64,000 nt of DNA. Source: SAR324 cluster bacterium. Its GTDB lineage: Bacteria > SAR324 > NAC60-12. Both the position numbers and the translations under genes were made by a program. A model generated the notes under the pieces. The model saw nothing but the letters and a program-made list of their open reading frames with translations. It had not been told where the DNA came from and did not search any database. The number at the start of each line of letters is the position of its first letter. Within the stretch, counting starts at the first letter, position 1. Positions 39,661-50,729 of the stretch are shown piece after piece. The stretch spans positions 1 to 64,000 of the forward strand of contig JADFZZ010000014.1 in NCBI GenBank assembly GCA_015232315.1. The letters are read 5' to 3'.

Positions 39661-42600
39661 TTAAACCAGTCGTGCCACAATGAAAGTTGTGTCGTCATCC
39701 CAAGCTTGATCTGAATAATGCTGACAGGCTGTTTTCAGAACACGGTCTTTGATTTCTGTGGCAGAGCAACCCATGGTGTTTTTGAGGACATTTTTCAAGC
39801 GACGGATGCCGAACATCTCACCCTGTGAATTATAGTTTTCCAGAAGTCCATCTGTATAAAACAACAGCACATCCCCTTTTCGTAAATTTCTAACCTGACT
39901 GGTGTAACGATTTTGTGCCTTATAGCCTAACGGTACGGAACGGCTATTCAAAGAATGAATTCCCTCTTTGGCCGTAGCAACCGTATTTTTTACAGTGTTG
40001 TCATGCCATATCAACGGAGGATTGTGTCCAGCAGAGGTATAGGTGAGCTGATACTTCCTTAAATCCAGAGACGCATAAAAAAAAGTCATGGCATATTGAC
40101 CTTTTGTGGTGGAATATAACACTTCATTCAGCCACGCCAATGCATTTTCCTGACGCAGAAAAAGGTCATTCTCCACCTGATCATCCATGCAGACATCCAG
40201 TGTTTTATAAAAACTGCCGGCCATGGCAGTGATGAGTGCCGAAGGAACTCCATGTCCAGTCACATCGCCAATCAGAATATCCAGCACTCCATGAGCTTCA
40301 TAGTAACGGTAGCCATACCAATCGCCTCCGCTTTCTGACGCGGATTGATAAAAACTCGCCAGTTCCAGCCCTTCAACTTGCGGATCTGATGCGGGAATCA
40401 GTAACTCCTGCACACTGCGGGCAGTTTCCAGTTCATGCTTCAGACGTTCGGTGGTTTTCAGGTTTTCATAAAGTCGGGCATTGACGATTGAAATAGCGGC
40501 CTGAGAAGCCAGTGCTTTCAAAATAACCAGACGTTCCCTGGTGAAGGCTTCTTCCGCCAGATTGTTTTCCATATACACCATGCCAATGATCTGGTTCTGA
40601 TTCTGGATGGGGGTACAAAGCAGAGATTTAGGCTGATATTGCAGGATGTAGGGATCATTATAAAAATCAGGGGAATTGACAGCATTGCCGAGAACCAGAT
40701 TTTCACGAGTACGCATCACATAATGAATCAGACTGAGAGGCAGTAACGTCGTTCCTTCTGCTGACATTGACTCAAGAGGTTGGGGAGTCTGAGACGTTTG
40801 ATGTTCCTGTTCTGAGTGCCATTGGCCCACGATTTTCCATGTTTCATTTTCCAATAAAATCAGCACGCCTGACTGGGCCCCCGCGTTTTTCAACATGAGG
40901 TTCATCAGTTTGTTGAGAAGGTTTTCCAGCACAATTTCACTGGAAATGGTCTGAGATGCCTGCAAAACCGCGGCAAGATCAATTTGCTGGGAAAAGGTGC
41001 GTGAGGTCTGGTTATGAGCGGTTGTCTGATGCTCGTCAACGCTTCCAGTCCGCAAAACATCCTCCGATAATTTAAGATGTCGCTGATTCAACCTGTGAAC
41101 CAGAGCATGAGCTCCCCAGCGATTATAAGCATAGTGAGCCGCGCGAAAATGTGCGTCTGCTGAAAGATTCTGCTGGAACCCTTCAAAAAAACTTCCAGCA
41201 AGTTCATGCGCAAGCGCTTCATCCTGTGGAAACGCATGCTGTCGTGCCAAATCAATGGCCTGCTGATACAACCCCATGGCCTTGGTGCTGTTTCCGGAAA
41301 CGCGCTGATATTCAGCTTCCATCAAATACAGTTTGTGGGCATAATTATGGACGGAACTGTTTGCCCAGCGACGCATTTGCCGGATATCTTTTTTTGCTTT
41401 CCTGAGCAACGAACTGACTGAAACATCCGTGGTTCCCGCAAGTTTTATCCAGGCCAGTGTCCGGAAAAACAGAAACACTGGAATCATCGGAGAACTGATG
41501 GCAGAATCCCGATATGGCTGAGCCGCGTCAGCATATTCAACGGCCAATTCAATCCTGCCGTGATAATAGCATGAAATCATTTTGCACAAATATATGTTGA
41601 ATAAAAAGGAAGCATCCTGTTTTTCCAGAAAATGAGGCAACCAGTGTTCTTCATTAAAAAGCCTTCTGGGTGCCATGACAGTATGATCTGCTACATCTTG
41701 CAGATCAGCCATCAATTGGGCAAAAAATGACAAATACACACTAAACAGCTCCCGATCCAGGTGCTTCAGAATTTTACTATATTTTTCTATCTCAGTTTGT
41801 ACCAGATCCAACGGCTTCCCGGAAAAAAACGAGATAATGCAATAGTTATTGACCGCATACCCAGCATATTCCAGATCGCCAGATTTGAGACCTTTCTGAT
41901 AATCTTCAAGAAGGAGCGGAACCAATTGCTGAAGAGGTCTCGTCCAGTGATGGATGTAAAAGTGGATGACATTCAACACCCGACATTCCTGATCTGACAC
42001 ACCCAGTTTTTCCAACAGATCCAGTCCCAACCGGGCAAATTCATGGCCACGCTCAATCTGTCCCAAACCACCACACAGGACCACCCCGTAACTGACAAAC
42101 GCAAAGGGAGACCATTGGGTGTTGCCATAAGTCACGGATAATTTCAGTTGAGCAAACATCATGACCGGAATCATTTCCGGTTTATAAAACAATACCATCG
42201 GTGCAATGTTGACAAGAATTTTGATGGCGTTGAATTTGTTGACCTCTGTCATGAGGGGAAGGGTCATGAGTTCTTCAGGAGTTTTACGGTTCAACAGCAG
42301 CCATGTGTTCATTAAACCTGTCAGCAGATGCCATTTTCCCGGATGACGAGGAATGGACACACCCAACTTTTGTAAAATATCAATCGCCAGATCCAGGGCC
42401 TCATGGCCTTTGTTCCGGGGGAGCATGAGCAGGATCTGGGAATTACAGGCATCCAGTTGGTCTTCAAAAGTTCGGGCCTTTTGCTGAATCAGATTCACCA
42501 GTCGCTGGGCTTCGCTCAGATCACCAGACAGATAAGCGGCTTGAGTGTTGTCATTGTGCAGCGCCAAACACAGCGCATAGTGATTTTCCCAGGGAGATGC

Positions 42601-44940
42601 CCCGAGCCAGGCGATGCTGGCCTGAAAATAGCGCATGGCCGGTTCGAACGCGACAGCCTTCATCGCCCGACGGGCGGCCCTGCTGTTCAATTCTGCCATT
42701 TGCGGATTTTCAGTGCCACTGGTTTCTGACAAGCCGAGATTGAGATGATTCACCGCGTCAAACAAAAATTCCTCATGTTCGTCACGCTCCATCATTTTCA
42801 GTAGATATTCTCCGATTTTCCGGTGCAATTGGAATTTCAGGGACGGCTCAATATTTTCATAAACAGCCTGACGGACTCGATCATGCGCAAAACGATACAA
42901 TGTATTGGCCGAGCCAGATTGAAATCCCTCGGCATTCCGCAGTTCATGCTCACTGACAGGCAGAATGAATTCGTCCCACAGGGCATCCCACAGATTGGCG
43001 GAAATCTCCACCCAATCGTTTTCGGATAATGCGGACAAAGTCCGGGTATCAAACCGGTTTCCCAGACAGGCGGCCCATTCCAGCAGTTTCAGGGTGGGTG
43101 GGGTGAGTCGCCGCAGTTGATCAGACATCAAGTGAACCACATTATCGGTGATATTTTGGGATTCAATGCGTCGGAGATCCCATTCCCATTGTCTGGAATA
43201 TCCTGAAAACTGAATCAGCTTTTCCTTATGCAAGGTCTGAAAAAATTGCCGTACAAAAAATGGATTCCCCTGCGTTTTCTGGCAGATCAACTGTGCCAGA
43301 GAATAGAGCTGATCCTCAGGGTTGTGAAGCGTATCACGAAGCAATGCCTGAATATGTTCCACTCGCAAAGGTCTCAAGGGGATATGATGGGTCGAGACAC
43401 CAGCCTGTTCCAGTTCCAGCAATGTCAGAAAAGAGGGATGTCCCTCTGCCATTTCATTGTCCCGATAGGCGGTGATAAACAGAAACCGGTTCAGATCTGG
43501 AGCGGTCATGATGAATTTCAATAATTTCAGGGTTGCCCAATCCGCCCATTGCAGATCATCCAGATACAGCACCAGAAATTTATTATTCCGGGTAAAAACC
43601 CGCAGAAATTTCAGAAAAGTTTGATTGAACCGATTTTGGGCACTGGTTCCGGACAGTTCATAGGATTGGGCCTGTTCACCCGTGATGAGGGACCATTCCG
43701 GAATCAGGTCGCCCAGCACAGACAGGTTTTCTTCCAATTCCTCCGTCAGGCATTTTTTCCAGAAATCCAGAGTTTCTGCAGATTCAGTGAGCAGATGCCT
43801 TACCAGTTGCCGAACCGCTTGTAGTATTGAAAAATAGGGAATGTTGGCCTGAAATTGTTCAAATTTGCCGGAAATAAAATAGCCCTGGTTCTGATTCACC
43901 AACGGAATGAGTTCCCTGATGATTGCGGTTTTTCCAACGCCAGAGTGGCCTTTAACCTGAACCAGCACCGTGTTCCCTGTCAGGGCCTGCTCAAAGGCAT
44001 TCCGCAATTGTTCCAATTCTTCTAACCGTCCATACAAATTGGCGGGAATCTGGAATTTTCCGGATACATCCTGCAGACCAAGTGTGAATAGTGGAATCGT
44101 GTGTTGCTGATTCCAAAAATTCCGACACTGCTCCAGATCGGCTTGAATACCAAATGCGCTCTGATAACGGGAGTCGGGAGTTTTTGCCATCATTCGAGCA
44201 ATGATCTCACACAGCATTTGCGGGAGTTCCGGTCGGAGTTGAGCCAGGGGAGTCGGAGTTCTGGCAATGTGGCAATGAACAAGTTCCATCGTATCCGTTA
44301 CCGGAAAGGGCAGGGCCCCTGACAAAAGTTCATAAAAGCTGATGCCCAGAGAATAGAAATCGACTCGCCAGTCAACCATTCGATTCATACGTCCGGTCTG
44401 TTCTGGTGCGATATAGGCCAGGGTGCCTTCAAACTGTTCTACTCGCAACGACTCAACTTCGCTGGCAATCTGGTCTGCAATGCCAAAATCAATAATAGCC
44501 ACAACACCGGTTTGTGGATTGAAAATGAGATTGGAAGGTTTGATATCCTTGTGAATAATCTGTTGCTGATGAATATTGCCCAGAGCCTGCACCAGCCGAA
44601 TCGCTATTTCCCAAAAGGTTTCCAGCGGCATGGGTCGTTTTGCGGAAGTATACAGGTTATGCAGGGAGTCCCCGCCGATATCGTGCAGAATCAAAACCGG
44701 TCGGTCATCGCTCTCAATCAGGTCCAAGGCCCGGGTGAGACCATCCATAGACCATGAACGGGTCAATTCATATTCATGCCTCAAGGTTTGCGTCTCCTCA
44801 GGTGCTGGATACGCTTTGGCCAACGTTTTCAAAATAACCGATTCCCGGGTTTTCAACGATTTTCCCCGAAACACCAGTGTTCGATCACTCTGATGAATCA
44901 GCGTCAATTCATGATATCCGGCAATATTCATGATTGCCAT
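39661..44940 (-). CDS. Ser/Thr kinase - AAA ATPase - GAF - SpoIIE phosphatase fusion protein
   Basis: The 1759-residue cytoplasmic signalling protein has, in order, a protein kinase domain (residues ~9-270; catalytic IHKDIKPSN with Asp132, DFG Asp151), a STAND-like AAA ATPase (Walker A GHSGVGKT, GKT at 336-338; Walker B-like LVLYLDDLQWAD), a long helical TPR-like region (~560-1300), a GAF domain (~1340-1500) and a PP2C/SpoIIE phosphatase with IGDVTGHGVPSALI (Asp1559 in GDVTGHG) and DTTFIVARLV at the end. Related giant proteins usually end in a histidine kinase; here the output is a phosphatase of the RsbU/SpoIIE kind that acts on STAS proteins. GGAG lies 8 bases before ATG 44940. Confidence 0.93.
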   Translation of the reverse strand: MAIMNIAGYHELTLIHQSDRTLVFRGKSLKTRESVILKTLAKAYPAPEETQTLRHEYELTRSWSMDGLTRALDLIESDDRPVLILHDIGGDSLHNLYTSAKRPMPLETFWEIAIRLVQALGNIHQQQIIHKDIKPSNLIFNPQTGVVAIIDFGIADQIASEVESLRVEQFEGTLAYIAPEQTGRMNRMVDWRVDFYSLGISFYELLSGALPFPVTDTMELVHCHIARTPTPLAQLRPELPQMLCEIIARMMAKTPDSRYQSAFGIQADLEQCRNFWNQQHTIPLFTLGLQDVSGKFQIPANLYGRLEELEQLRNAFEQALTGNTVLVQVKGHSGVGKTAIIRELIPLVNQNQGYFISGKFEQFQANIPYFSILQAVRQLVRHLLTESAETLDFWKKCLTEELEENLSVLGDLIPEWSLITGEQAQSYELSGTSAQNRFNQTFLKFLRVFTRNNKFLVLYLDDLQWADWATLKLLKFIMTAPDLNRFLFITAYRDNEMAEGHPSFLTLLELEQAGVSTHHIPLRPLRVEHIQALLRDTLHNPEDQLYSLAQLICQKTQGNPFFVRQFFQTLHKEKLIQFSGYSRQWEWDLRRIESQNITDNVVHLMSDQLRRLTPPTLKLLEWAACLGNRFDTRTLSALSENDWVEISANLWDALWDEFILPVSEHELRNAEGFQSGSANTLYRFAHDRVRQAVYENIEPSLKFQLHRKIGEYLLKMMERDEHEEFLFDAVNHLNLGLSETSGTENPQMAELNSRAARRAMKAVAFEPAMRYFQASIAWLGASPWENHYALCLALHNDNTQAAYLSGDLSEAQRLVNLIQQKARTFEDQLDACNSQILLMLPRNKGHEALDLAIDILQKLGVSIPRHPGKWHLLTGLMNTWLLLNRKTPEELMTLPLMTEVNKFNAIKILVNIAPMVLFYKPEMIPVMMFAQLKLSVTYGNTQWSPFAFVSYGVVLCGGLGQIERGHEFARLGLDLLEKLGVSDQECRVLNVIHFYIHHWTRPLQQLVPLLLEDYQKGLKSGDLEYAGYAVNNYCIISFFSGKPLDLVQTEIEKYSKILKHLDRELFSVYLSFFAQLMADLQDVADHTVMAPRRLFNEEHWLPHFLEKQDASFLFNIYLCKMISCYYHGRIELAVEYADAAQPYRDSAISSPMIPVFLFFRTLAWIKLAGTTDVSVSSLLRKAKKDIRQMRRWANSSVHNYAHKLYLMEAEYQRVSGNSTKAMGLYQQAIDLARQHAFPQDEALAHELAGSFFEGFQQNLSADAHFRAAHYAYNRWGAHALVHRLNQRHLKLSEDVLRTGSVDEHQTTAHNQTSRTFSQQIDLAAVLQASQTISSEIVLENLLNKLMNLMLKNAGAQSGVLILLENETWKIVGQWHSEQEHQTSQTPQPLESMSAEGTTLLPLSLIHYVMRTRENLVLGNAVNSPDFYNDPYILQYQPKSLLCTPIQNQNQIIGMVYMENNLAEEAFTRERLVILKALASQAAISIVNARLYENLKTTERLKHELETARSVQELLIPASDPQVEGLELASFYQSASESGGDWYGYRYYEAHGVLDILIGDVTGHGVPSALITAMAGSFYKTLDVCMDDQVENDLFLRQENALAWLNEVLYSTTKGQYAMTFFYASLDLRKYQLTYTSAGHNPPLIWHDNTVKNTVATAKEGIHSLNSRSVPLGYKAQNRYTSQVRNLRKGDVLLFYTDGLLENYNSQGEMFGIRRLKNVLKNTMGCSATEIKDRVLKTACQHYSDQAWDDDTTFIVARLV

Positions 44941-45199: not shown

Positions 45200-45262
45200 G
45201 ATAAACCCGTAAATCATCATTATTCAGGAAAAACAACTTGAAATCGTTGATGAGAATTTGTC
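45200..45262. repeat. Diverged ~65-bp repeat, copy B
   Basis: This stretch shares the ordered blocks ATAAACC, TCATCATTATT, GAAAAACAAC and TGAAAT with copy A at 38226-38290. The block TTGAAATCGTTG contains the first possible (TTG) start of the oxidase-like gene. As copy A is non-coding, this argues for the later ATG 45304. Confidence 0.5.
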
Positions 45263-45303: not shown

Positions 45304-47004
45304 ATGTTGTCTGTCTCGCAAAAAACATTATCTGTCGCTTCCTGGCTATGGCGAAAAACACTTTCGGAAGATCACAAACAGATCGCAATGCTTTATGTCG
45401 CCCTGTCTGTGCTGCTTTCAGAGTTCTGGGGACTGCATGCCTTGTTCTGGAGCATGGGCAAATTACTCATTTCCCAGTCAACCGTCAAATTACCACCAAT
45501 GCTGAGTGATGGATTGATTCTCTGGCACCTCGCCTATCCGTTGATGGTTGCGGTGTTATCCTATCTGATTCCTTTAATGATCGGTGCACGGAAAATGGCG
45601 TTCCCCCGATTGCTGGGATTGGGGTTCTGGTGTTTTGTATGGGGATCGTTCGCATTGATTTTCCAGGTATTGTTCGAGGAAAACACTCATTCTTCCAGAT
45701 ATTTAGCCATTGTATTGCTCTCAATGTCCAGTGGTTGCAACGCCATCAGTTATCTGGTCACCATCAAAAACATGCGAACGTCAGGAATGACAATGTCACG
45801 CCTACCATTGCTGATTTGGGCCGGTGCGGGAATGGCCTGTGTCTGGTGTCTCAAATGGCCGCTGGAAACCATGTTTGCGGTGTTGCAGGCTCTGGCAAAC
45901 CAAATGGGGGAATTTGCGATCATTGATAATCCGATATGGCGCATGTTCATGCATGATTACAGAATGTGGAATTTTCATCCGGAAGTGATGGTCCTTGTGT
46001 TGCCGTCTTTCGGGATTATTTTTTCAATTTTCTCCACCTTCAGCAAAAAGCGGACACTGGTATACACCGGACAAATTTTCCTGTTTGGCATGATCATCCT
46101 ACTACTGATTATTGGATGGTGGCGTATCATTCTGCCCATTCCTGAAAATTTTAACGCGGTTTTTCTTGCAACCGTCCTGGTTTCTTTCATGGGCATTCAA
46201 AGTCTGCTGGGAATTTTTTCCTTGTCGATCAATAAGAACATGCTGAATCCCGCCATGATTCTGTCCCTGAATGCTGTCACAGTGCCCTTGATATGTATCC
46301 TGATTGAAGCGGGTGACGCCATGTTCAAGATCGCCTATACGGATATCATACTGATTCTTGCTCCAGTTCATGTGCAACTGATCCTGATCAGCATGATTTT
46401 AACATCCGGCATTGCCGCCATTTATTTCTGGTTTCCCAAGGCAACTGGTCGGCATGTGTATCCGCACTGGTCAATTCTTCATGTGATATTGCATCTTGCC
46501 GGTGTTTACCTGTCTTGCATGCCAGTGATTCAAAGTTCAGAAGGAATTCATGTGTTCACTGAATGGGTTGCCATGTTTTCACATGAAACGCTTGTGTGGG
46601 TGACCATGGGGCTTTTCTGTTGGTGCACAGGCTATGGGGTGGGAATCTTTAACTGGTTTCATAGTTATCATCATGGAGCAGTAGCCTCTCATGATCCCTG
46701 GAATGGACGGACGCTTGAATGGAGTGTGCCCTCGCCGGTGCCCCCCTATAATTTTGCGGTGTCACCCAAAGTGCATACCATGGACGCGTTTTTATATGAA
46801 AAATATGTGCATCCCGATGTTGTCGCGCATCCAGAAATGATTGAGGTTCACGGAGCCCTTCCGGGTAGTTCCATCTGGCCTTTTCTGATCAGCGTTGGTG
46901 GAGTGATCGCATTGATCAGCCTGCTGTCATGGTTCTGGATGGTCATCCCCGGACTCATTTTTATGTTTGCCGGCGTTCTGGGCTGGGCCTTTCATCCTGA
47001 ATAA
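45304..47004 (+). CDS. Heme-copper oxidase subunit I homologue lacking the O2-reduction site
   Basis: The 566-residue membrane protein (about 13-14 helices) aligns with A-type cytochrome oxidase subunit I: SEDHKQIAMLY, PLMIGARKMAFPRL, FHPEVMVLVLPSFGIIFSI and IYFWFPKATGRHV are all in register. Catalytic positions are changed: HPEVY is HPEVM (His225 kept, cross-linked Tyr lost), the CuB pair HH is Arg274-Ile275, the heme a3 His is Pro354, and the K-channel Lys is Gln299. His356, matching the low-spin heme ligand, is kept. A His in WHL may or may not be the other ligand, as it is eight residues off. ATG 45304 follows GGGTGA; TTG 45238 lies in repeat B. It is followed by a subunit III gene; no subunit II is nearby. 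Confidence 0.75.
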   Translation: MLSVSQKTLSVASWLWRKTLSEDHKQIAMLYVALSVLLSEFWGLHALFWSMGKLLISQSTVKLPPMLSDGLILWHLAYPLMVAVLSYLIPLMIGARKMAFPRLLGLGFWCFVWGSFALIFQVLFEENTHSSRYLAIVLLSMSSGCNAISYLVTIKNMRTSGMTMSRLPLLIWAGAGMACVWCLKWPLETMFAVLQALANQMGEFAIIDNPIWRMFMHDYRMWNFHPEVMVLVLPSFGIIFSIFSTFSKKRTLVYTGQIFLFGMIILLLIIGWWRIILPIPENFNAVFLATVLVSFMGIQSLLGIFSLSINKNMLNPAMILSLNAVTVPLICILIEAGDAMFKIAYTDIILILAPVHVQLILISMILTSGIAAIYFWFPKATGRHVYPHWSILHVILHLAGVYLSCMPVIQSSEGIHVFTEWVAMFSHETLVWVTMGLFCWCTGYGVGIFNWFHSYHHGAVASHDPWNGRTLEWSVPSPVPPYNFAVSPKVHTMDAFLYEKYVHPDVVAHPEMIEVHGALPGSSIWPFLISVGGVIALISLLSWFWMVIPGLIFMFAGVLGWAFHPE

Positions 47005-47008
47005 TGCT

Positions 47009-47521
47009 ATGGGAAATCTTCGACTGGGTATTGGCATTTTTATCTTCAGTATTTGCTGGGCCTTTGCGGTTCTCGCCAGACTGGCGGCTTCATTTGATAC
47101 CCCGCAACTCAATCCCTGGAGTGTGCTTCCAGAAACATTTTTATCTGGTGGCGTTCTGTTGGCATTATGCTGTGTGATTCTGACGCTTTCATCCAGAGCG
47201 CTGAATCGGGGACAACGTTGGTATTTCAGATTCTGGTTTTTGCTATTCCTGGGTTTGAGTGTGGGATATATGTTGCTGAAAAACTATGAATTTATCCAGA
47301 TGTACCCACGTATGACTTCCTTCAGGCTGGTTTCAGCCCTGCCGTTGCTCATGAGCATGTTTCACACGTTGCATGTTCTGGCAGGATTTATCTGGGGAAT
47401 CGGTATTGGTGCCGTTTCCTGGCTTGATACCAACTGGAGAAACATGGAAACCCTGCGAGGATGTATTTTATATTGGTATGGAATGTTGGTTTTATGGATT
47501 GAACTCGCACTATTTCTTTAA
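47009..47521 (+). CDS. Cytochrome c oxidase subunit III-like membrane protein
   Basis: The 170-residue protein has five hydrophobic segments as in CoxC/CyoC-type subunits. Family features are LRLGIGIFIFSICWAF (compare KLGMWLFLASE), LKNYEFIQM with the conserved Glu, and SMFHTLHVLAGFIWGIGIGA (compare TGxHGxHVxxG). It ends in ILYWYGMLVLWIELALFL, close to the family YWHFVDxVWxxLF. The usual second-helix Glu/His set is reduced. It begins 4 bp after the oxidase-like gene; ATG 47009 is chosen because the longer frame runs into that gene. It presumably forms a complex with the subunit I homologue. Confidence 0.8.
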   Translation: MGNLRLGIGIFIFSICWAFAVLARLAASFDTPQLNPWSVLPETFLSGGVLLALCCVILTLSSRALNRGQRWYFRFWFLLFLGLSVGYMLLKNYEFIQMYPRMTSFRLVSALPLLMSMFHTLHVLAGFIWGIGIGAVSWLDTNWRNMETLRGCILYWYGMLVLWIELALFL

Positions 47522-47535
47522 CCACCGGGACCTTT

Positions 47536-49725
47536 ATGGACACTGATTCAGACAAGAAAAGCACACCGCCAGCACCTGATCAGAACCAGCAGGATGGAAA
47601 GAAATTCGGAACATTTCATGGCGTATTCCGACCAACCATCCTGACCATCCTGGGTGTCATGATGTACCTTCGGGAAGGTTGGGTCGTGGGCAATGCCGGA
47701 TTACTGGGAGTGATTCTGATTATCCTGATGGCCTATGTGATTACGGGAACCTCCGCTCTCGCGATTTCCTCCATCACCACCAATATCCGACTGGGAGCCG
47801 GAGGTGTCTTTTCTATTGTCAGTCAAAGTCTCGGACTCGAAGTCGGCGGAAGCATAGGATTACCATTTTATCTGGCACAGGGACTTTCAACAGCGATGTA
47901 TATCTATGGCTTTGTGGAAGGCTGGCTATATATTTTTCCCACACATATTCCCATGCTGGTGTCATTCATTGTCTTTGCTGTCATCTTTATCCTCTCGTAT
48001 ATCAGCACAACACTCGCATTCCGGGTACAATTGGTCGTCATGTGCGGTGTGATTCTTGCGCTTACTTCCATTTTATTGGGAGCCAAAGTGAATCCCATCT
48101 ACACGCCGGAATGGTGGGGTGGATTTCAGGATGTGGGTTTTTGGGGATTATTCGCCATTTTCTTCCCAGCGGCTACCGGCATCATGGTCGGTGCGAGTAT
48201 GTCGGGCAATCTGAAAACACCACGAACCAGCATTTACAAGGGAACCCTGATCGCCTGGGCCTTGTCGCTTGTGGTTTATCTGTCGCTGGCTGTCTGGTAT
48301 GCGTGCATTGCGACACCTGAAGAACTCAGAAGCAATCTGACCATTGCGGTAGACCGTGCTTATTGGGGACCAGCCGTCCTGCTTGGAATATTGTCTTCCT
48401 GTTTCACTGCCGCCCTGAGTTCCTTTGTCGCGGCCCCCAGAATTCTTCAGTCGCTGGCAAAACATCAAATTGTGCCACTGTCTGAATTTCTGGGTAAATT
48501 GCATCAGGGAGAGCCCAGAAACGCCATGGCATTCACGGCATTGCTGGTTTTTGTAACACTATTATTGGGTGATTTGAATACCATAGCGCAAGTCTTGACC
48601 ATGTTTTTTCTGCTGACGTATTTCACCATCAACAGTGTACTGCTCATTGAACAGCAGTTGAATCTTATCAGTTTCCGTCCGACTTTCAGCATTTCTCAGG
48701 GAATTCCGCTGATTGGTGCAATGTCCTGTCTTTCAGCCATTGTGATCATTAATCCCTTCTGGGGAATGATCGCGATTTTACTGAGTGTTGGCATCTATTT
48801 TTATCTGGACCGCAGAGGACTCGACTATCCCTGGGAAACAGTACGCAGTGGTTTGTTTGTCGCCATCGCCAACTGGGCTGCCAAAAAAGTGGTGACCAGC
48901 AAAGAACAGGAAAGCTTGAGGTCATGGAAACCGGACCTGCTGATTCCGATTGAACGTAGAACCCAATTTGAAGGAAATTTCCGTCTTTTGAGCGCCTTGG
49001 TCTATCCTCAGGGGTCGATTCAGGTCATTGCCCTGATGAAAGAGAAAGATATTGTGCCACTTCTCGGACTCAAGCAACTGATCAAGGAAATGCAGAGCGA
49101 AGGCATTTTTGCGTCTGCCGCAATTATTGATTCATCCGACTATATCAGCAGTATTAAAGCAACCGTTGCAGTGATGAAAGGATCGTTTTTTCAACCGAAC
49201 ACCTTTTTCACGGCCATTGAAAGCCGAACACAGGAAGAGCTTCAGGGAATCATGGATATGGCAAGGGGAAATCAGATGGGAGTTATCCTGTTCGCCACAC
49301 ATCCAGAGGTTCATTTGGGCCGGGAGAGAACTATCAATCTGTGGATTCGTGATCAGTCACCTGAATGGCAATTGAGCATCCAGTTAGCGAATCTTGATCT
49401 GTCACTTTTGTTGGGCTACAAACTCGTTAAAAACTGGAATGCGCGTTTGCGTGTGATTACTGTGGTTTCAGATGAAAATCATGTTGACATCGCCAGGAAA
49501 TATCTGGGAGATTTAATGGTGACAGCCCGCATTCCAAAAGGCTATGAAATTATTGCCGAGTACACCGATTTCAAAACATTTCTTGAAAAATCGCCAAGGG
49601 CTGATCTGAGTATTTTTGGTCTGGCGGACACTATCAGCAAAAACTTCCTGCAACAAATAATGATCCAAACAAAAAGTTCCTGTTTATTTGTGCAGGATTC
49701 TGGACTGGAAAGTGCGTTGGCCTGA
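47536..49725 (+). CDS. SLC12-type amino acid permease / cation-chloride cotransporter homologue
   Basis: The 729-residue protein opens with FGTFHGVFRPTILTILGVMMYLREGWVVG, the signature of the cation:chloride cotransporter (SLC12) group of APC permeases, and has 12 membrane helices to about residue 440. FFPAATGIMVGASMSGNLK is the conserved helix-6 region. The remaining ~280 residues are a cytoplasmic C-terminal domain like that of SLC12 proteins, with two UspA-like halves (LIPIERR...; TKSSCLFVQDS). The substrate may be K+/Na+/Cl- or amino acids. It starts 14 bp after the subunit III gene, in one operon. Confidence 0.88.
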   Translation: MDTDSDKKSTPPAPDQNQQDGKKFGTFHGVFRPTILTILGVMMYLREGWVVGNAGLLGVILIILMAYVITGTSALAISSITTNIRLGAGGVFSIVSQSLGLEVGGSIGLPFYLAQGLSTAMYIYGFVEGWLYIFPTHIPMLVSFIVFAVIFILSYISTTLAFRVQLVVMCGVILALTSILLGAKVNPIYTPEWWGGFQDVGFWGLFAIFFPAATGIMVGASMSGNLKTPRTSIYKGTLIAWALSLVVYLSLAVWYACIATPEELRSNLTIAVDRAYWGPAVLLGILSSCFTAALSSFVAAPRILQSLAKHQIVPLSEFLGKLHQGEPRNAMAFTALLVFVTLLLGDLNTIAQVLTMFFLLTYFTINSVLLIEQQLNLISFRPTFSISQGIPLIGAMSCLSAIVIINPFWGMIAILLSVGIYFYLDRRGLDYPWETVRSGLFVAIANWAAKKVVTSKEQESLRSWKPDLLIPIERRTQFEGNFRLLSALVYPQGSIQVIALMKEKDIVPLLGLKQLIKEMQSEGIFASAAIIDSSDYISSIKATVAVMKGSFFQPNTFFTAIESRTQEELQGIMDMARGNQMGVILFATHPEVHLGRERTINLWIRDQSPEWQLSIQLANLDLSLLLGYKLVKNWNARLRVITVVSDENHVDIARKYLGDLMVTARIPKGYEIIAEYTDFKTFLEKSPRADLSIFGLADTISKNFLQQIMIQTKSSCLFVQDSGLESALA

Positions 49726-49841
49726 AAAAGGTTTTTTTTAAGGATAAACATATCGCAAAATAGATTTGTATATTTATTGCAAAACGGAGATCAGGAAAAG
49801 GTATCCCTGCTTTGATTAACCCACATCTGAAGTAATTGGTT

Positions 49842-50729
49842 ATGCTAAACCCCTATCTTGTTCTAGGTGTTCCCCCATCCGCCTCATTTGAAGAACTGAA
49901 ACGTGCCTATCGGCGAGCTGTGCTCAGATATCACCCTGATACCGCCAAAGAAACGGGCAACGCAGAGAAATTCAATGCGGTGATTCAGGCTTACAATCAT
50001 CTGAAACTCAAGCATGAGAAAAAACCGGGCATGTCCCGAACCATGCATTTTTATCAACCACCACCTTATGCCGGTCCAGCACAAAGTTCCAGATACACGA
50101 GCCAGACAGGCAATAATGCACGGGAATCACATGTTGATAATCAAACATACCAGATGTCTCTGGAAGAACTCATCAGTTGTCTGGAATTTTCAGACAACCT
50201 CTACGTCAGACGTGTTGCCATTGAGGCGATAGCCCTGAAAAAAACGTCAGAATCTCTGGATTATCTGATTTCCCTGCTCAACAAATCAGACGCTAAAACC
50301 CAGCAAATGATTATTGAGTCACTGGGACAGAAAGAATTGCATCAGGCGAAATCAGCATTATTCCCATTGATTTTTAATTCAAATGTCGATATTGCCATTG
50401 GAGCAATCAAATCTCTGGAAAAGATCCAGCCTGTCAATCGAAGAAAAATCATTCAGGCACTGAAACGGGAAACATTATCTCCATGGAAAAAGGTTTTATT
50501 GCCAGCAAGGCACTACCTGCATAAAAAAAAGCATGTGCCTTCTCTGGATACCTTGGGAGAAATTGTGATGCGTGAATATCATGTGTCAGAAGAACAGTTG
50601 GAATTATCACTGTTGTTGCAAAAGCGTTTTCATCTTTTGCTGGGTCAAATTTTGAGAGAACTGGACTATCTTTCTGTGCCTCAAATCCAGAAAGCGATTG
50701 CCCGACAAAAAATGATGCGCAGTTATTAA
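49842..50729 (+). CDS. J-domain protein with HEAT-like repeats and a MshEN-like C-terminal domain
   Basis: The protein (295 residues from ATG 49842) starts with a J domain: NPYLVLGVPPSASFEELKRA YRRAVLRYHPDTAK, with the HPD tripeptide that stimulates DnaK ATPase. Residues ~108-215 form HEAT-like helix pairs (VRRVAIEAIALKKTSESLDY and IAIGAIKSLEKI). The last ~60 residues (LGEIVMREYHVSEEQLELSL and LLGQILRELDYLSVPQIQKA) match the N-terminal domain of GspE/MshE-type ATPases, a c-di-GMP-binding fold in some. No zinc finger or G/F region is present. It may target DnaK to a pilus or secretion complex. Function unknown. Confidence 0.75.
   Translation: MLNPYLVLGVPPSASFEELKRAYRRAVLRYHPDTAKETGNAEKFNAVIQAYNHLKLKHEKKPGMSRTMHFYQPPPYAGPAQSSRYTSQTGNNARESHVDNQTYQMSLEELISCLEFSDNLYVRRVAIEAIALKKTSESLDYLISLLNKSDAKTQQMIIESLGQKELHQAKSALFPLIFNSNVDIAIGAIKSLEKIQPVNRRKIIQALKRETLSPWKKVLLPARHYLHKKKHVPSLDTLGEIVMREYHVSEEQLELSLLLQKRFHLLLGQILRELDYLSVPQIQKAIARQKMMRSY

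Follow-up and report, generated by a model that had tools for sequence, protein, structure and literature searches.

Heme-copper oxidases are usually treated as enzymes, and a subunit I that is kept by selection without its metal sites asks what role the protein shell has alone. Ligand-less COX1-like proteins are already on record in Acetobacter, where one lacks all metal-binding residues (Matsutani 2014, cited in PMC10715153). According to the citing paper, its gene clusters with ctaB and its proposed role is to stabilise CtaB; the description given there mentions no COX3-like or transporter partner (PMC10715153). We analysed a window of 64,000 nucleotides from a SAR324 cluster bacterium (the first 64,000 positions of contig JADFZZ010000014.1), in which a COX1-like and a COX3-like gene stand side by side. 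The SAR324 and Acetobacter proteins are alike by description only, each being COX1-like, without metal ligands, and retained in its genome.

Counterparts in a further bacterial class were found in Acidimicrobiia. At one GTDB locus (L103), a second COX1 (L103:1636-3312) has lost all six His ligands. It has ctaB on one side and ctaC-ctaD on the other, and a COX3-like protein of 198 aa (PF00510) is encoded after it. A class-level search returned 17 ligand-poor COX1 sequences. The first CuB His is kept in none of the 17, so no Acidimicrobiia ligand-poor COX1 has a full CuB set; a few retain some heme His. The operons (L103:492-8909, L168, L170-L172, and L174-L176) hold ctaB, the ligand-poor COX1, canonical ctaC/D/E/F, a COX3-like gene (called in L103, L168, and L174-L176), and a ~262-aa gene matching no Pfam family. 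Where gene calling worked, the cta genes were on one strand with the ligand-poor COX1; three high-GC loci were left out. A brief literature search found no paper on these operons. We also observed an intermediate in Acidimicrobiia (L129, G197:C59:46449-48038), in which all three CuB His are gone but neither the low-spin pair nor the a3 His has been lost, so that stages of ligand loss may be visible.

The SAR324 gene resembles these paralogues in having lost CuB and most heme ligands and in having a COX3-like gene next to it. However, it does not lie in a cta operon, whereas they sit inside ctaB-ctaC-ctaD-ctaE operons. Its protein also keeps the first CuB His that all of them have lost, and it carries C-terminal helices that the L103 protein lacks. 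The genes concerned, in window positions, are as follows.

39661-44940, minus strand: signalling protein of 1759 aa (Ser/Thr kinase, AAA, GAF, SpoIIE phosphatase), divergent from the COX1-like gene
45304..47004, plus strand: COX1-like protein of 566 aa, candidate pseudo-oxidase subunit I, read from an ATG (a TTG at 45238 is less likely)
47009..47521, plus strand: COX3-like protein, 170 aa, beginning 4 bases past the COX1-like stop
47536..49725, plus strand: prokaryotic cation-chloride cotransporter (SLC12-like), 729 aa, 14 bases past the COX3-like gene; functional link doubtful
49836..50729, plus strand: DnaJ-HEAT protein, paired with the transporter also in relative G005 without COX genes

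The frame of the COX1-like gene is intact, and COX1 (PF00115) was the only Pfam family that its product matched (88.6 bits, where the family cut-off is 34.8). Its best NCBIfam scores were to CyoB, CtaD, and QoxB, all far under the equivalog cut-offs (145.6 against 1020 for CyoB). An AlphaFold2 model built from 101 sequences (pLDDT 85.2, pTM 0.90) had E. coli bo3 (TMq ≤0.87), caa3, and aa3-600 subunit I as its best Foldseek matches, and the modelled fold is that of COX1, in the variant that carries additional helices at the C terminus. It shares fold and TM order with A-type subunit I (bo3, aa3-600, and 14-helix CtaD; PF00115, TIGR02843, TIGR02882, TIGR02891) and keeps that family's HPEV, WFPK..GR, and DPW..RTLEW..PSP.PPYNF motifs along with the extra C-terminal helices. 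By contrast, of the seven residues that bind a metal or form the cross-link it lacks five, and it has neither proton channel. The first-pass annotation had called it a COX1 homologue without the catalytic binuclear centre, and the Pfam match and the replaced CuB His pair and Tyr bear this out. A promoter scan at the locus gave a result at chance level. We rejected as causes a frameshift introduced by sequencing and a join made during assembly, given a single open frame on a 103-kb contig and losses scattered across many codons. We likewise rejected the idea that the gene recently arose by duplication from the aa3 subunit I of this genome, as identity is 24% and that subunit lacks the C-terminal extension.

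Individual sites were read from a 101-row MAFFT alignment of the protein with 100 homologues that have full ligand sets. They are named in R. sphaeroides numbering, with functions that we take from family knowledge.

45505..45507, plus strand: Ser68 where TM2 normally has a low-spin heme His (H102; H in 100/100 canonical rows)
45592..45594, plus strand: Lys97 where the D channel has its entry Asp (D132; D in 100/100 canonical rows)
45976..45978, plus strand: His225, the first CuB His (H284), kept within HPEV by alignment
45988..45990, plus strand: Met229 in place of the His-cross-linked Tyr288, by alignment
46123..46128, plus strand: Arg274-Ile275 in place of the CuB His pair (H333-H334), by alignment
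46198..46200, plus strand: Gln299 in place of the K-channel Lys362 (K in 85/100)
46369..46371, plus strand: His356 at the heme a3 proximal His (H419), not the low-spin one, by gapless helix alignment
46375..46377, plus strand: Gln358 in place of the TM10 low-spin heme His (H421), by alignment

The D channel is further altered (N121 to Ser86, N139 to Leu104), as is T359 (Met296), while E286 and T352 are kept. The propionate Arg pair R481-R482 has become Glu420-Trp421, and the TM9 Gly pair Cys331-Ile332. The only metal ligands left are His225 for CuB and His356 for heme a3. For His225, the CuB pair, the Tyr, and the K-channel Lys, this alignment agrees with the earlier reading. In TM10 it does not, because Pro354 had been assigned to heme a3 and His356 to a surviving low-spin heme. 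Read back from WFPK to His356, the helix aligns without a gap, and a 2-residue insertion lies before TM10, at or beside Pro354-Val355, in both MAFFT alignments (101 rows, and 5 rows with a longer insertion) as well as in the phmmer match to 6koc. His356 thus takes the a3 position and Gln358 the low-spin position. The earlier register, which would require a 2-residue deletion within the helix, is off by two, and both assignments fall with it.

In the TM2 column, some smaller MAFFT sets placed Leu or His75; Ser68 is favoured by the alignment of 101 rows and by the model, in which the helix begins at residue 69. His75 lies 7 residues beyond Ser68 and has little support as a substitute ligand. With Ser68 and Gln358 in these positions, the low-spin heme would be without any ligand. 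The annotators' own counter-case, in which shifted His residues supply the ligands, thus holds in part: His356 would do so for heme a3, and CuB and the low-spin heme are left unliganded. As CuB has only one of its three ligands left and the low-spin heme neither of its two, the protein should still be incapable of reducing O2 in the known way, as had been concluded.

The 170-aa companion had been described as a subunit III homologue, and we agree. Pfam gave no match for this protein alone, and its COX3 profile score was 28.3 bits, when the best among 1000 shuffles was 10.9. It shares the FHxLHVxxG motif (here FHTLHVLAG) and its adjacency to COX1 with COX3/CtaE (PF00510; NF050119). Unlike that family, it lacks the C-terminal WH.VD-type motif, with a degenerate end (YWYGML for YWHFVD), and scores 20.8 bits against a cut-off of 190. 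Judged on these features, it is a true but degenerate COX3 homologue. The sole COX3-like match within the phylum was weak (2e-4) and adjoins one of the best COX1 matches (G032:C99), an arrangement in keeping with a single operon of the 14-helix type as the source of both genes. The reported absence of subunit II also held, with no such gene near the pair and the genome's COX2 matches located on other contigs (C42 and C48).

Our preferred explanation, to which we give somewhat less than an even chance, is that the two genes encode a selected-for pseudo-oxidase I/III heterodimer that serves as a scaffold, assembly partner, or regulator. The ancestor would have been the subunit I/subunit III pair of a 13-14-helix A-type oxidase (CtaD/QoxB/CyoB-like). 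Compared with such a pair, the low-spin heme and CuB sites, the propionate anchors, and both proton channels are gone, and the helical bundle and I-III gene arrangement persist. The two products presumably form a membrane heterodimer without redox cofactors, which may have been kept because it shares a binding partner with oxidase cores, most likely one of the respiratory complexes active in the cell or the factors that assemble them. A role for a cofactor-free I/III module is suggested by analogy with the Acidimicrobiia and Acetobacter precedents. Such a module could act on the aa3 oxidase of this genome, whose operon is complete, or on its cbb3 oxidase. Against this account, no oxidase, ctaB, or other assembly gene adjoins the COX1-like gene, unlike in both precedents; its neighbours encode the kinase, the COX3-like protein, the transporter, and the DnaJ/HEAT protein.

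Since the two remaining ligands are His225 and His356, and no Acidimicrobiia paralogue keeps the first CuB His, the protein could instead be a single-heme membrane sensor. It would hold a five-coordinate heme on His356 in the old a3 site, with neither CuB nor a low-spin heme, sense O2 or NO, and signal via the COX3-like protein or other partners. The large signalling protein encoded divergently next door, with its kinase, AAA, GAF, and SpoIIE domains, would suit this idea. However, heme binding at His356 is predicted only from alignment, and the replacement of the propionate Arg pair by Glu-Trp and of TM9 Gly-Gly by Cys-Ile argues against a normal heme pocket. Model confidence drops near residues 343-352 and 271-290, and no signalling domain is fused to the COX1-like protein. 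The heme-based sensor proposed in the first-pass annotation is thus conceivable through this lone heme, but the pocket losses disfavour it, and we regard it as unlikely.

A pseudo-oxidase heterodimer also has to be weighed against a second use of the same bundle, as accessory subunits that partner or couple the SLC12-like transporter. The COX1-like, COX3-like, and transporter genes share a strand, are spaced by 4 and 14 bases, and are probably on one transcript. Yet in G005, a relative from the same family, the DnaJ/HEAT gene comes after a transporter that is 69% identical to this one (the two at L160:4390-7601, on G005:C3), with no COX genes upstream. Two additional G005 transporter copies likewise lack the COX pair, and none of the phylum's other transporter-bearing genomes has a COX1-like orthologue. 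From this comparison, the COX pair appears to have been gained or lost next to a transporter-DnaJ/HEAT pair, which makes adjacency weak evidence for joint function. The SLC12-type neighbour is probably incidental, the suggested ion coupling with it is weakened, and we consider an accessory role quite unlikely. The DnaJ/HEAT protein, for its part, might be linked to the transporter.

No COX1-like orthologue was found in 52 genomes of the phylum, nor in ~840 further genomes covered by three phylum scans. The first and third of these scans gave no match at strict thresholds and were run without a positive control; the second gave two matches, both ligand-complete. A GTDB scan with the single protein found nothing, and a GTDB alignment scan contained no orthologue among the best 80 of 593 candidates, whose matches to the query are canonical. 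Close matches from the phylum genomes, the scans, and these best 80 were 22-31% identical, with full ligands where the region is complete. In tblastn against plasmids (750 records), the top rows were 25-28% identical and were ordinary oxidases where annotated. On the first-pass question of whether the same ligand losses recur in homologues, the close matches are ligand-complete, and ligand-poor COX1 occurs in Acidimicrobiia.

Lack of orthologues in relatives and a very long branch are what a relict under relaxed selection, with stops not yet acquired, would leave. However, the COX1-like protein has an end branch of 2.3-3.3 changes at each site. In simulations, 0.5 neutral changes per base introduced a mean of 18 stops (minimum 11), while the actual frame is open, so the divergence is far beyond what a neutral frame survives. 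All 566 codons, and the 170 of its companion, are open, and the fold and many structural near-invariant residues are kept. The protein retains 47 of 84 near-invariant residues (73-84 in each of the 100 homologues), and losses fall unevenly, with 4/15 functional residues kept against 43/69 others (p = 0.02). Because ~18 stops would be expected neutrally and structural residues have outlasted functional ones, maintenance of the frame by selection is supported at the sequence level, as the first-pass annotation supposed in proposing another role for the protein. We find a relict likewise quite unlikely. A different redox enzyme, with its cofactor on unrecognised residues (His75 with another His, Cys, or Met, or a quinone site), is very unlikely. 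Two small alignments do move His75, which stands 7 residues further on, to the position of the lost TM2 His, but this requires a 7-residue deletion within TM2, and with Gln358 in TM10 the low-spin heme would even then have a single ligand.

In our trees (FastTree and a quick tree), the Acidimicrobiia ligand-poor COX1 group apart from canonical COX1 (SH-aLRT 96-99, quick tree). Placement of the SAR324 protein within the 14-helix canonical set was not rejected (p-AU 0.56), with a very long end branch, and a position beside the Acidimicrobiia ligand-poor group is possible on these sequences. A broader idea, which we hold to be possible but doubtful, is a recurrent class in which COX1-COX3 pairs of several bacterial lineages independently lost their redox cofactors and now serve without them in the membrane, whether as assembly platforms, as regulators, or as partners in transport, with the SAR324 pair having departed oxidase operons altogether. 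Together, the SAR324 pair and the Acidimicrobiia operons form a comparative set with which structural and catalytic constraints on COX1 could be told apart and a pseudoenzyme role in oxidase assembly could be put to the test.

The genome encodes five PF00115 proteins including the COX1-like protein. The others are an aa3 subunit (C42), a cbb3 fusion (C37), a further heme-copper oxidase beside a cytochrome b (C18), and an orphan (C34), with the C18, C37, and C42 types assigned from sequence and neighbours. PF00115 matches alone would thus overcount terminal oxidases, as two of the five seem to lack the CuB His pair. The orphan (L167:5934-7325, on G000:C34) is a 463-aa protein with no NCBIfam match and no adjoining oxidase genes seen. 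Its TM2 His, GGGHLLQ, and AHYH are present, and its CuB His pair seems absent by eye, with ALPGPFFYF in the region. The C18 locus (L166:7087-11711, on G000:C18) encodes a 517-aa heme-copper oxidase subunit I with a full His set by eye and, downstream, a 726-aa cytochrome b-like protein.
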